Part shown: in pieces, positions 3,549 to 10,339 of the stretch
How positions within the stretch are numbered: the first letter of the stretch is position 1
Layout: the number at the start of each line of letters is the position of its first letter
Source: Chloroflexota bacterium
Lineage (GTDB): Bacteria; Chloroflexota; Anaerolineae; B4-G1; SLSP01
Direction: 5' to 3'
DNA: 10,339 nt
Assembly (NCBI GenBank): GCA_012798275.1
Contig: JAAZNO010000688.1
Location: 1-10,339 of the forward strand
Made by a program: the position numbers and the translations under genes
The notes under the pieces: generated by a model
Database searches by the model: none
What the model was told of the DNA's origin: nothing
Seen by the model: the letters and a program-made list of their open reading frames with translations, nothing else

Positions 3549-4517
3549 ATGTATTTCGACATGCCGTTAGAGGCGTTGCAATCCTACCGCCCGCTGCGGG
3601 AGGAGCCGACGGATTTCGAGGCTTTCTGGCAGGCGACGCTCGCCGAGACGCGCGCTTGGCCTCTCGCGCCCCGCTTCGAGGCTGTGGATTACGGCTTGCG
3701 GCGCATGGAGGTCTTCGACGTGACCTTCGCCGGCTATGGCGGGCAGCCCATCAAGGGGTGGCTACTGCTGCCGCGTGAGCGTTCCGGTCCGTTGCCGTGT
3801 GTGGTCGAATACATCGGCTATGGCGGCGGACGTGGTTTTCCTACCGAATGGCTGTTATGGAGCAGCGTCGGCTTTGCCCATCTGGTGATGGACACGCGCG
3901 GACAGGGGAGCACCTGGCGCCATGGTGATACACCCGATGGGGCCCTGGAAGGGCGTGCTCCCCATCATCCCGGCTACATGACGCAGGGGATTCTCGATCC
4001 TCACACGTATTACTACCGTCGGGTGTTTGCTGATGCCGTGCGGGCCGTGGAGACCGCCCGCGCCCATCCGGCAGTGGATGCGGCGCGGGTCGCCGTGGCG
4101 GGGGGCAGTCAAGGCGGCGGCATCACCCTGGCGGTGAGCGGTCTCGTCCCCGATGTGGCGGCGGCGTTGTCCGACGTCCCCTTCCTCTGCCATTACCGCC
4201 GCGCGGTGGAGGTCACCGACCGCGATCCCTATCACGAGCTGACCCGCTATTGCAAGATCCATCGTGAGCAGGTGGAGGCGGTCTTCCACACGCTGGCTTA
4301 CTTCGACGGCGTGAATTTTGCCGCGCGCGCCAAGGCGCCGGCGCTCTTTTCCGTGGGGCTGATGGATGACGTCTGCCCGCCTTCGACGGTGTACGCGGCC
4401 TATAACATTTACGCCGGCCCCAAAGAGATTTGCATCTGGCCTTTCAACCAACACGAAGGCGGCGGCGCCCATCAAACCCTGGCGCAAATTCGCTTTCTCA
4501 ACGCCTTGTGGGGGTAG
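3549..4517 (+). CDS. CE7 acetyl xylan esterase / cephalosporin C deacetylase
   Basis: This 322-residue alpha/beta hydrolase should remove O-acetyl groups from small acetylated sugars such as xylo-oligosaccharides, and cephalosporin C as a side substrate. CE7 enzymes are cytoplasmic hexamers, and no signal peptide is present here. The family's features are complete: N-terminal YRP-x3-EPTDFEAFW (13-27), RGQG (117-120), nucleophile elbow GGSQGG with Ser187, the acid in [17 protein letters not shown] (Asp273) and catalytic His302 in NQHEGG. These positions are one residue short of Ser188/Asp274/His303 in the Thermotoga maritima enzyme (325 aa, from memory), so the chain is full length. The gene stands first in the rightward cluster. 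Its TAG stop touches a heptamer array leading to a GH65 gene, suggesting co-transcription. The triad makes the family assignment firm; the natural substrate is inferred. Confidence 0.95.
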
Positions 4518-4699
4518 ACTGGATACTGGATACTGGTTGCTGGTTGCTGGATACTGGTTGCTGGTTGCTGGTTACTGGTTGCTGGATACTGGTTGCTGGA
4601 TACTGGTTGCTGGTTGCTGGTTACTGGTTGCTGGATACTGGTTGCTGGATACTGGTTGCTGGTTGCTGGTTGCCATTACCCATTACCCATTACCTATTA
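4518..4699 (+). repeat. Heptanucleotide tandem array, 26 units, with nested 49-bp period
   Basis: Starting on the base after the esterase stop codon, 22 consecutive 7-bp units follow [A/G]CTGG[A/T]T without an indel (4518-4671). Four more units in the same 7-bp phase, of the type [G/C]C[C/T]ATTA, follow (4672-4699). Only two positions vary in the first family. Units 6-12 and 13-19 are identical as 49-bp blocks and units 20-22 begin a third block (4553-4671), so the array grew by copying seven units at a time. No forward frame contains a stop codon inside the array. It occupies 182 of the 202 bases between the two genes, leaving only the ribosome binding site. Such heptamer arrays occur between genes in several bacterial phyla; the role here is unknown. 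Confidence 0.95.
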
Positions 4700-4719: not shown

Positions 4720-6879
<2,160 letters not shown>

Positions 6880-6936: not shown

Positions 6937-6965
6937 TTGACAAAGATACATTTTACGCTTATAAT
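6937..6965 (+). promoter_or_regulatory. Consensus sigma-70 promoter of the regulator gene
   Basis: A perfect -35 box TTGACA (6937-6942) and a perfect -10 box TATAAT (6960-6965) are separated by exactly 17 bases. Transcription should begin around 6972, giving a leader of about 40 bases to the ATG at 7012. The location in the 132-bp gap after the GH65 gene shows that the regulator has its own promoter. Confidence 0.9.
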
Positions 6966-6982
6966 GGTATAAAGTTATACCA
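6965..6982 (+). promoter_or_regulatory. Palindromic operator, probably for the adjacent GntR-type regulator
   Basis: TGGTATAA-AG-TTATACCA is a perfect inverted repeat with 8-bp arms and a 2-bp centre. It abuts the -10 box (the last T of TATAAT is its first base) and covers the expected transcription start, so a bound protein would block initiation. Size and symmetry fit the dimeric winged-helix GntR family, whose sites often contain GT..TA..AC-type half-sites. The immediately downstream gene encodes such a protein, hence negative autoregulation is the simplest reading. I found no second exact copy in this window. Confidence 0.8.
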
Positions 6983-7011
6983 ATGTGCCTCATGGACTGC
7001 CAGAGAGGGCA

Positions 7012-8496
7012 ATGATAGACCGCAATTCACCGATCCCAATCTATTATCAGTTGACGTGCTACTTCAAAGAGCTGATTGAAATGGGCGAGCTGCGCCCAGG
7101 TGATCGGTTGCCCACGGAAATGGAGTTGTGCGAGCGGCATCGTGTCAGTCGCGCGCCGGTGCGGCGGGCGCTCACCGATCTGGCGCGTGAAGGCTACATC
7201 TATCGCCGCGCCGGGCAGGGAACTTTTGTGGCCCCCGTCAACACCTCTCAAGAAGGGCAGCTGGAGCTGCGGCTGGTGACGCATCACGACATTCGCTGGT
7301 TGGCGACACTGGAGCAGGCCGTCTATCTGTGGAACCAGCTGCATCCCGAGCAGCGAGTGCGCATCAGTTCCACCATTTCTTCGCGTAGCGATTTCCATCA
7401 CGTGTTGCGACGGTTGGTGGCGCAGGGTAAGGCGCCCGACATTGCTCCGATGGATTATGTGTGGATCTGTGACTATGCTCTGGGGGGGTACCTCACCCCG
7501 GCGGAGGCGCTGGATGCCCGCTGGACCCGGCGGCTTTGCGAGGGCCTGGAGCCCCTGGTGTATCAGGGCAATGAGGCCGATGGCCGTCTGTACGGCCTGC
7601 CGGTGCAGACAGATGTGACCGGTCTGTGGTATCGCAAGGACTGGTTCGAGCAAGAGGGACTCACGCCGCCCCAAACCTGGCCCGAGTGGCTGGCGCTCCT
7701 GGATTATTTTGCCCGCCCGGAAGTGATGCAACGCCTGGGACACCGGTATGTCACGGCTTTCCCGGTGAGCGAACTCGGCGGCGAAGCCACGGTCAACCTG
7801 TTGATCCCCTTCGTGTGGGGGGCCGAGGCCAGCGGCGCGATCACCTCTGGCGAGGGCGCCCTGGCGACGTTGTTGCCGGGCCTGCAGGAGGCGCTGCGTT
7901 TTCTGCGGGAGATCACGCTCACCCGGCGACAGCTCCTGCCGCCGAATATGGCGGATACCCCCTGGTGGGATTTTCCCCCGCTGCTGTCGCAGGGAGTGGT
8001 GCCCATGATTTTGGGGGGAACTTACGAATGGCCGCGCATTCAGGAAGACAGCGATTGGGAGGACGAAGAGGAGGTCAGCCGGCATTTGGGTTTTGTCCCG
8101 GTGCCGCGCCCGACGCTGGAAACGCCTCCCACTTGTTCTCTCGGCGGGACGAGCTGGGCCATCCTGGAGCAGTCTCCCAATCACGAATTGAGCTTCGAAA
8201 TCCTGAAGCTCGCCGCGAGCGCGGAGCTCTCGGCGGAATTCTGCATGGAGAACCTGCAACTCTCGCCCTATCGCGCGGTCAATGAAAATCTCATCTCGCC
8301 GCAGCATCCCTGGCTGACGTTGATTGTGCCCTTGTTGCACTATGCGCGGTTGCGGCCGCAGCTGGTGAATTACATGCAGCTGTCGCGGGTGCTTCAGGAT
8401 ACGGTGTACCGCGCGCTGTGGCAGGGAGCGGTAGTGGAGGAGACACTGCGCCATACGACGCGCTTGTTGCAGATCCTCGTCGGCGACGTTGGTTGA
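7012..8496 (+). CDS. GntR-family regulator fused to a MalE-like solute-binding domain
   Basis: This 494-residue protein joins a GntR winged helix-turn-helix (about 7-75: PIPIYYQLTCYFKELIEMGELRPGDRLPTE, then the recognition helix VSRAPVRRAL, then EGYIYRRAGQGTFVAP) to a family 1 type sugar-binding domain (about 85-490). The second part shows the MalE-like pattern YGLPVQTDVTGLWYRKDWFEQEGLTPPQTWPEWLALL (194-230). Signal peptide and membrane segments are absent, so the binding domain must work in the cytoplasm as an effector sensor. The usual GntR effector domains (FCD, UTRA, aminotransferase) are absent. AraR is a precedent for GntR plus a periplasmic-type fold, but that one is LacI-like. ATG 7012 is chosen over an upstream in-frame GTG (6985) because it precedes the HTH by the normal distance. 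A palindrome over its own promoter implies autorepression. It probably responds to a sugar made or used by the neighbouring enzymes. Confidence 0.9.
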   Translation: MIDRNSPIPIYYQLTCYFKELIEMGELRPGDRLPTEMELCERHRVSRAPVRRALTDLAREGYIYRRAGQGTFVAPVNTSQEGQLELRLVTHHDIRWLATLEQAVYLWNQLHPEQRVRISSTISSRSDFHHVLRRLVAQGKAPDIAPMDYVWICDYALGGYLTPAEALDARWTRRLCEGLEPLVYQGNEADGRLYGLPVQTDVTGLWYRKDWFEQEGLTPPQTWPEWLALLDYFARPEVMQRLGHRYVTAFPVSELGGEATVNLLIPFVWGAEASGAITSGEGALATLLPGLQEALRFLREITLTRRQLLPPNMADTPWWDFPPLLSQGVVPMILGGTYEWPRIQEDSDWEDEEEVSRHLGFVPVPRPTLETPPTCSLGGTSWAILEQSPNHELSFEILKLAASAELSAEFCMENLQLSPYRAVNENLISPQHPWLTLIVPLLHYARLRPQLVNYMQLSRVLQDTVYRALWQGAVVEETLRHTTRLLQILVGDVG

Positions 8497-8711: not shown

Positions 8712-10339
8712 ATGAAGAAGCAACTGTTTACCGTGCTTGGCGCATTGATCGTGCTGTCAATGCTGCTCTCTGCCTGCGGCGGGACTACAACCCCCGCGCC
8801 GACTCAGGAAGCGACGACCGCGCCGACTCAGGAAGCGACGACCGCGCCGACTCAGGAGGCAACGGAAGCGCCGCCCGCGCCCGCGCAGTATAAGCAGGCT
8901 CCCATGCTCGATAGCTGGGATCTGCCCCCCGTTGAGGAGCGCCTGCCCGTGGCCGAGGACATCATGGTGATCAAGCCGTGGGATTCCATCGGCAAGTACG
9001 GCGGCACCTGGAATACGGTGACCTGGTGGGCCGGCGCCGGCAACATCAAGATGAAGTTGTACGATCCGCCCGTTCGCTGGAAGGCTGACCTCACCGGCTA
9101 CGAGCCGGGCTTGCTCATCAAGATGCCGGAGTGGTCTGACGATGGCAAGACCATCACCTTCACCTTCCGCCGGGGCATCAAGTGGTCTGATGGTGTGCCC
9201 TTCACGACCGCCGATCTGAAGTTCTGGTGGGAAGACCTGGCCTTGAATGAGGATTACAAGACCTCGACCGTCCCGTGGTGGGCGCGCAACAGCGACGGTA
9301 CCCCCATCACCATGGAATTCCCCGACGACATCACCTGGGTGCTGCATTTCGATAAACCGCAGTATATCATGCCCTACATCCTGGCGCAGGGCACCTGGGA
9401 GTGGGAGCCGCTGATGAAGCCGGCGCACTTCCTCAAGCAGTATCATCCTGACTACGAGGGCAAGCCTGGTGAGGAAGGGTACACGGAGCTCGATCGGATG
9501 GACCGCTGGTTCGAAACCCCCGGTTATCCCTGCCTCATGGCCTGGTGCTTGAAGGAGTACAAGGCTGGCGAGTATCTGCTCCTGGAGCGCAACCCCTACT
9601 ACTGGAAGGTAGACACCGAGGGCAATCAACTGCCCTACATTGACTACGTCCGCACGGAGCTGGTGGAGGATTCCGAGGTCCGCTTGCTGCAGGTCGCGCA
9701 GGGCCGCTATGACTGCGTCTTCCGCTACAACGGCAGCCCGCGTGACACACCCTTCCTGCTCGAGAATGCGGAAGCCGGCAACTACCGGCTGGTGCCCGGC
9801 TGGATGAACGGCGCGGGCGCGTGGCCGGGGATCATCGTCAACCAGGACTTCCACCGCGACATGGAGTACGATCCGGCCAAGGAGTCTGAGGAAGACAAGG
9901 AAATTCGCGCTCTCTTGCGCAATCACGACTTCATGGTCGGGCTTTCCTACGCGATGGACCGCCAGCGCGTGCTGGATGTGGTCTGGGACGGCCTCGGCGA
10001 GGTGAAGAACTTCACCATCAGCCCGCAGTCCCCGCACTTTGCCAGCGAAGAGGGCAAGAAGGTGTTCCAGGAGTGGGCGAGTGCCTACGCTGAGTACAGC
10101 CCCGACAAGGCCAAGGAAGCCTTCGACAAGGCCGGCTTCGTGGACGCCGATGGCGACGGCTGGCGCGACCTGCCCAGCGGCAAGCCCTTCACCCTCGTTC
10201 TCCAGGTGAATGACTGGAGCGATCCGAAAGTCAACACCGACTTCGGCGAAGTCTACAAGCTGAATCTCGAGGATGTGGGCGTCAAGGTGTTGATTGATAA
10301 CGCTGTCGGCACGGCCGATGGCGGCATCAACCGTGACAA
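8712..10339 (+). CDS. ABC transporter solute-binding lipoprotein, family 5 (C-terminus beyond window)
   Basis: The visible 542 residues belong to a second SBP_bac_5 lipoprotein; the gene is open to the right edge. Residues 1-21 are a signal peptide with lipobox LSAC (Cys22). Residues 29-52 are three 8-residue repeats APTQEAT[T/E], encoded by 24-bp direct repeats (8796-8867), acting as a flexible tether. The family signature follows at 140-175 (EWSDDGKTITFTFRRGIKWSDGVPFTTADLKFWWED), and later the pattern SYAMDRQRVLDVVWDGLGEVKNFTISPQSP appears, as expected for this fold. The protein is rich in tryptophan (WWAGAGN, FWWED, WEWEP). That, with the neighbouring sugar enzymes and a sugar-type regulator, suggests an oligosaccharide rather than a peptide ligand, as in the family 5 sugar-binding proteins of Thermotoga. 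The ligand is inference; the family is not. Permease and ATPase genes would be expected downstream. Confidence 0.93.
   Translation, partial: MKKQLFTVLGALIVLSMLLSACGGTTTPAPTQEATTAPTQEATTAPTQEATEAPPAPAQYKQAPMLDSWDLPPVEERLPVAEDIMVIKPWDSIGKYGGTWNTVTWWAGAGNIKMKLYDPPVRWKADLTGYEPGLLIKMPEWSDDGKTITFTFRRGIKWSDGVPFTTADLKFWWEDLALNEDYKTSTVPWWARNSDGTPITMEFPDDITWVLHFDKPQYIMPYILAQGTWEWEPLMKPAHFLKQYHPDYEGKPGEEGYTELDRMDRWFETPGYPCLMAWCLKEYKAGEYLLLERNPYYWKVDTEGNQLPYIDYVRTELVEDSEVRLLQVAQGRYDCVFRYNGSPRDTPFLLENAEAGNYRLVPGWMNGAGAWPGIIVNQDFHRDMEYDPAKESEEDKEIRALLRNHDFMVGLSYAMDRQRVLDVVWDGLGEVKNFTISPQSPHFASEEGKKVFQEWASAYAEYSPDKAKEAFDKAGFVDADGDGWRDLPSGKPFTLVLQVNDWSDPKVNTDFGEVYKLNLEDVGVKVLIDNAVGTADGGINRD
8796..8867 (+). 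repeat. 24-bp coding tandem repeat (three copies) in the lipoprotein linker
   Basis: Three direct 24-bp units encode APTQEATT, APTQEATT and APTQEATE immediately after the lipidated cysteine region. The first two are identical at DNA level; the third diverges (GAG, GCA, GAA codons). Copy-number change would keep the frame and only alter tether length. Confidence 0.9.

Follow-up and report, generated by a model that had tools for sequence, protein, structure and literature searches.

A gene on a contig assigned to a Chloroflexota bacterium raises the question of whether a sugar-binding domain of the type found in exported importer proteins can serve, inside the cell, as the sensor of a transcription factor. 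The gene lies in a stretch of 10,339 nucleotides, hereafter the window, and a preliminary description made from the letters alone read its product as a GntR winged helix fused to a MalE-like solute-binding domain, a rare combination without an export signal. We consider here whether the fusion is real and how widespread it is, what it may control and where its sensor may have come from.

A single protein with two domains

The regulator gene (7012..8496, + strand) is one open reading frame that translates into a single protein of 494 residues followed by a stop, and its two-part character is borne out by the translation, Pfam, the relatives and a profile match. The GntR DNA-binding domain (PF00392) occupies residues 13–73 (7048..7230, + strand) with an E value of 1e-18 and 67.1 bits against a cut-off of 27, which places the N-terminal part in the GntR superfamily; the family 1 solute-binding domain (SBP_bac_1, PF01547) was matched over residues 98–405 (7303..8226, + strand) with E 1.7e-19 and 71.4 bits against a cut-off of 26, and the related model SBP_bac_8 (PF13416) over residues 132–421 (E 1.9e-13, 51.3 bits). 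All three families proposed earlier for a domain search are therefore found in the regulator, and the winged helix and the solute-binding domain both exceed their cut-offs within one protein. The ten Pfam families matching at E up to 1 include no other effector domain: UTRA, FCD, aminotransferase-like and LacI-like domains, which would mark the HutC, FadR, MocR or AraR type, are absent, as is PF00496 (SBP_bac_5), the mark of the SgrR family. NCBIfam models of GntR subfamilies, among the 25 of 37 matches listed, cover the N-terminal part only and stay below cut-off.

For comparison with solved structures we used a profile of alignment A1, made of 56 regulator relatives. It matched the sugar-binding protein 5ci5 (E 2.1e-35) over profile positions 112–487, nearly the whole C-terminal part, as well as the trehalose/maltose-binding protein 1eu8 (E 8.1e-30) and MalE3 (6dtq, E 9.4e-29), whereas the repressor YvoA/NagR (2wv0, E 4.6e-26) matched over residues 2–81. 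The match to solved binding proteins extends to about residue 487, beyond the end of PF01547, and the hits to 5ci5 and 1eu8 speak against the concern that the C-terminal part might lack a periplasmic-binding fold. No signal peptide is visible by eye and the N-terminus is the winged helix, as the idea of a cytoplasmic sensor had it. Position 7012 is the consensus start of the family; a GTG upstream, at 6985, would give nine extra residues.

The other concern, a frameshift joining two separate genes, is excluded for the window because the reading frame is uninterrupted and is also single in relatives. The regulator of locus L087 (genome G431), 96.8% identical to that of the window, is likewise one uninterrupted frame, and no internal stop was found in the regulator frames of the 46 loci examined; of the 34 matches from a genome search, two (G425 and G429:C197) have one stop inside the matched stretch. 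The fusion is real.

Notable residues are conserved in both domains. In the sensor, at least 49 of the 50 fused proteins, and all six exported relatives, share each of D148, W151, E258, Y338, G378-G379 and R448; we take these to be putative ligand-loop positions, after MalE-type structures. In the winged helix, the DNA contacts of NagR, named in PMC4918961, are kept at Y11, S46, R47, R51, G68 and T71 and differ at three positions, where Arg38, Thr50 and Gln53 of NagR are Met37, Pro49 and Arg52 in the regulator (mapped with an offset of one, assuming that chain position equals residue number).

Spread of the fused family

Nor is the architecture a one-off. The window protein found 234 relatives, and of the 120 listed, with 441–509 residues and including the window's own cluster (P0002), 119 carry both domains, the exception being a shorter entry, P0114; with a Bipolaricaulota member as the query, both domains are present in 119 of the 120 listed out of 262, all but P0212, a protein of 327 residues. 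Some of the listed relatives bear names from Bipolaricaulota, Acetothermia, Atribacteria, Aerophobetes and Thermomicrobiales. At the level of the order, a search at E 1e-30 gave a match in 28 of 48 genomes, the window's own included; three of the 28 are partial matches. In a draw of genomes from the class, 182 of 396 had a match at E 1e-20; at least 39 of the 396, among the matches listed, had one that extends into the sensor with an E value no worse than 1e-64. The remaining listed matches almost all stop after about the first 80 positions, and a few continue to 114–141. In a draw from the phylum, with three candidates scored per listed genome, 3 of 400 genomes had a match, again including its own. 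The claim of rarity holds in one respect, as we found no described example in the literature, and fails in another, the arrangement being common in its own lineage.

Promoter and putative operator

Upstream of the gene, a −35 element TTGACA (6937..6942, + strand) and a −10 element TATAAT (6960..6965, + strand), separated by a 17-base spacer, form a promoter with a 12/12 match to the consensus. The −10 element shares its last base with the first base of a putative operator, the exact 18-bp palindrome TGGTATAA-AG-TTATACCA (6965..6982, + strand). At up to three mismatches this is the sole match in the window, and none was seen in any of 200 shuffles; in the draft genome (3.06 Mb, 89% complete), the regulator promoter is the only match at the same threshold, the reversed control giving 0, and no second site is present there that could point to a regulon. 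In the genomes of five relatives, the site at the regulator promoter outranks all others in four; in G433 it ties for first place, with two mismatches. With up to three mismatches allowed, these genomes have 2–11 sites versus 1–4 for the reversed control, and the weaker sites are therefore near chance. The palindrome pointed out in the preliminary description is thus exact and unique in the window, but this form of it is common only to close relatives.

What is conserved more widely is a near-consensus promoter accompanied by inverted repeats of varying register. We compared 40 upstream regions, those of the 46 loci minus the duplicates L009, L010 and L112 and the too short L086, L104 and L115. 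A near-consensus promoter (score of 10 or more) is present in 31 of them, versus 0.75% of shuffles, and nine score 12; the nine regions scoring below 10 include those of the Bipolaricaulota loci L012, L013 and L014. Inverted repeats at −10/+1 are perfect in L101 (12 of 12 pairs), nearly so in L105 (11) and weak in many. Across 33 anchored regions, the highest mean numbers of pairs, 4.97, 4.88 and 4.67 of 12, were obtained at offsets 5, 10 and 14, compared with about 3.4–3.5 for shuffles; in the window itself, 9 of 12 positions pair when the offset is 14, and 7 when it is 10. A single palindrome register for the whole family was rejected, as the register varies between subclades and the mean pairing over the 33 regions is modest. 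With register and pairing varying among the upstream regions, the layout of promoter and inverted repeat is better conserved than the site itself. Terminator-like sites near the regulator gene showed no excess (two, versus 1.8 by chance).

Importers beside the regulator

The next gene on the plus strand (8712..10337, cut by the contig end) encodes an importer lipoprotein of family 5 (SBP_bac_5, E 1.2e-44), in agreement with the preliminary description. The further statement that sensor and importer have unrelated folds was too strong: the two belong to separate Pfam families, yet families 1 and 5 both have the type II periplasmic-binding-protein fold. Upstream of the regulator, on the same strand, lie an AXE1 (CE7-type) esterase found with Pfam (3549..4517; nearest solved relative 1vlq, E 5.7e-139) and a GH65 enzyme (4720..6879; closest among solved structures to 3wiq, a kojibiose phosphorylase, E 3e-156), the reading frame of which is open upstream to 4366. 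Between these two genes, a tandem repeat at 4518–4673 (49-base unit, 3.1 copies, 95% matches) falls within the upstream extension of the GH65 frame. The minus strand of the window carries a second importer set, with a putative lipoprotein fragment (3–509) and two Opp-type ATPases within 658–2687; a 13-base repeat of four copies (606–657) sits between the minus-strand genes 3–509 and 658–1677. In L087, the esterase and GH65 genes precede the regulator, which is followed by the genes of the family 5 lipoprotein, of two permeases and two ATPases, and of a small protein with a cyclic-nucleotide-binding domain; the closest solved matches of this lipoprotein are 5ipw, SPH1118 (7ver) and the alpha-galactoside-binding protein 6epy. 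Judging from their similarities, the gene neighbours in the window and L087 suggest carbohydrate import, without naming a sugar.

A survey of neighbouring genes, also proposed in the preliminary description, shows how regular this arrangement is. The 46 loci are 40 fetched stretches, the window and five loci from named genomes, and 31 were counted after removal of the three duplicates and of 12 with under 1000 bases downstream; neighbours were labelled with Pfam for representatives and by BLAST clusters for the rest. The next same-strand gene encodes an importer binding protein in 26 of the 31, 116–375 bases on, and this protein is of family 5 in 9 loci and of family 1 in 17. Arrangements other than that of L087 include a regulator with a family 1 protein and two permeases after it, to which four loci add a GH57 protein bearing a glucodextranase-type module. 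The next gene is something else in L080, L081, L100, L110 and L115. Where representatives were scanned, the regulators of L080, L081 and L082 stand beside a divergent CdAMP_rec-type gene, and those of L080 and L081 face enolase-superfamily and FGGY-kinase genes, with no importer. Directly downstream of the regulator, L083:1463-3838 (−) and L108:5063-7474 (−) encode proteins of 792 and 804 residues with two tandem family 1 domains by Pfam, and a 144-residue protein with a cyclic-nucleotide-binding domain, L084:1217-1648 (−), follows Opp-type importer genes and belongs to a cluster of seven members in six loci.

The pairing of sensor and importer is loose. On the regulator-only tree, the importer type changes at least twice, and L102 and the window share 51% identity in their importer proteins but 37% in their regulators. 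When regulator sensors and the family 1 proteins beside them were placed in one tree, the regulators grouped together, with 3 changes versus 17.8 for shuffled labels; no single branch separates them from the rest, and the neighbours are far apart on long branches. The idea that each sensor is a copy of the binding protein of the neighbouring importer was rejected: a regulator's own family 1 protein is the best match among the neighbours for 2 of 19 regulators (L090 and L095).

Origin of the fusion

A search with a GntR-less relative from L016 found 49 proteins. Six of the same subfamily (P0245-P0248, P0250 and P0252), 35–42% identical to the query, have a signal peptide, lipobox or N-terminal hydrophobic stretch by eye and no GntR domain; three relatives (P0242-P0244) have neither signal nor winged helix. 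The query itself, L016:2541-3818 (+), is closely related to the sensor domain but has no GntR domain or visible signal; it lies on a contig titled Thermoplasmata archaeon and may be a cytoplasmic stand-alone binding protein. P0243 and P0244 resemble it.

The order of events is less clear than the kinship. In the full tree of 68 sensor-domain rows, the exported and solo rows are nested inside the fused ones (support 92/95 and 90/99), and only 8% of bootstrap trees have a single fused clade. Forcing the fused rows into one group lowers the log-likelihood by 2.35, and the AU test on the same set does not reject a single fused clade (p 0.396). A second tree omits nine long-branch rows, four fused ones of the P0270 type and five of the outgroup, a choice made once the first tree was known. 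In this second tree a single clade unites the 46 fused rows (100/97, all of 200 bootstrap trees), the exported rows fall outside in two groups, and a long stem of 1.04 changes per column leads to the clade of the window. We have therefore set aside the derivation of exported forms from fused ones, at which the full tree hints. Because the two trees disagree and the AU test gives no rejection, the direction and number of fusions can be called likely only: the exported form probably came first, and a single fusion followed, although the P0270 type may stem from a second one. A signature, ELC...SRxP, was dropped as evidence of a single fusion: 136 of 224 sequences contain it, and ELC also occurs in L002, an ordinary GntR protein encoded in the window's genome, which holds six GntR domains in all. 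Taking these observations with the importer comparison, we lean towards an exported sugar-binding protein that was captured once by a GntR winged helix and kept its pocket, giving a portable sugar-release switch that was re-paired with family 5/Opp and far-apart family 1 importers.

Discussion

We consider it probable that the protein is a cytoplasmic one-component regulator, a ligand-released autorepressor of its own importer operon. The GntR winged helix, probably as a dimer, would bind the inverted repeat overlapping the −10 element and the likely start site of its own, strong promoter and so shut off the operon of regulator and importer. The family 1 domain would close on a cytoplasmic sugar or oligosaccharide, and, since hardly any linker separates the winged helix from the first strand of the sensor domain, closure would disturb the DNA-binding arrangement and release the promoter. 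The sensor probably descended from an exported binding protein by loss of the signal peptide and gain of the DNA-binding domain, and the regulator would since have been coupled to importers of different kinds. The two domains, the kept NagR contacts, the putative ligand loops, the promoter, the unique palindrome and the importer next door all argue for autorepression; the 5 of 31 loci without an adjoining importer, the 9 of 40 without the promoter, the varying register, the three changed NagR contacts, the loose pairing and the nesting in the full tree speak against it.

The same protein might instead be an activator or dual regulator, with the sugar-bound form switching the importer on; GntR-type proteins can activate, and many binding-protein-like regulators, SgrR among them, are activators. 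We hold this to be unlikely, because the promoter already matches the consensus at 12/12 positions and a protein bound over the −10 and start region should block the polymerase; near-consensus promoters, in the window as in 31 of 40 regions, fit repression better than activation. Less probable still is a solute-binding domain that is past small-molecule binding and serves dimerisation or contact with a protein such as an importer part. The long stem of the window's clade and the loose pairing would agree with such a role, as would the need for a dimerisation part when no other is seen among the Pfam matches, but the putative ligand-loop residues are kept as in the exported relatives.

Autorepression would hardly be touched by another reading, one we regard as quite possible if short of probable, that the sensed sugar differs from the importer cargo, being for example a breakdown product or a storage disaccharide. 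It is compatible with the preferred model save for the ligand, and the changes of importer type on the regulator tree, the 2 of 19 best matches and the GH65 enzyme upstream are in its favour; the adjoining importer gene in 26 of 31 loci is not. Finally, the listed NCBI names of the fused members, "extracellular solute-binding protein", imply an exported binding protein in which the winged helix is incidental. This is very improbable given a GntR match of 67 bits and no signal by eye, while the true exported relatives have signals and lack the GntR domain, and two listed JGI names (P0085 and P0234) already mention DNA binding. Extracellular by their listed NCBI names, the family members look by sequence like cytoplasmic regulators.

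If the single capture outlined above is right, the family would be a GntR subfamily for which we found no description and nature's counterpart of the engineers' binding-protein biosensors. As exported close kin exist, the steps by which a transport protein turned into a sensor linked to DNA binding might be reconstructed in this family; and since importers of different types follow one sensor clade, it lends itself to asking whether the specificities of sensing and import co-evolve. The compact set of sensor, operator and promoter is amenable to tests in Escherichia coli.

Several known systems resemble the regulator in part. AraR also joins a GntR winged helix to a periplasmic-binding-protein-like sugar sensor, and its DNA-binding domain (4egy) matches the A1 profile; its sensor is, however, a LacI-like domain, of type I fold, in contrast to the type II family 1 domain of the regulator. 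NagR/YvoA and DasR, of the HutC subfamily, share the winged helix, but their effector domain is UTRA. The GntR subfamilies named in PMC4918961 are FadR, HutC, MocR, YtrA and AraR, and our literature searches, weak evidence because subscription journals were thinly covered, returned no description of a GntR domain with a family 1 domain. SgrR and DsvR, according to PMC13060122, are cytoplasmic regulators that combine N-terminal DNA binding with a C-terminal importer-type domain in one protein, and E. coli SgrR autoregulates; they differ in having a family 5 domain and another helix-turn-helix. Engineered proteins in which binding proteins are fused to DNA-binding domains, one of them the GntR domain of FadR, follow the same principle but are laboratory-made, whereas the regulator family is natural; the construction of such allosteric regulators is called an "elusive holy grail" in PMC6079105. 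The family 1 importer binding proteins 5ci5, 1eu8 and MalE3 resemble the regulator in C-terminal sequence, including the D148 and W151 positions, but are exported importer parts, while the regulator's domain is joined to a DNA-binding one. Two loops also differ, reading NW and GGW in the 1eu8-like outgroup but GG and GGT/GGM in the regulator family.
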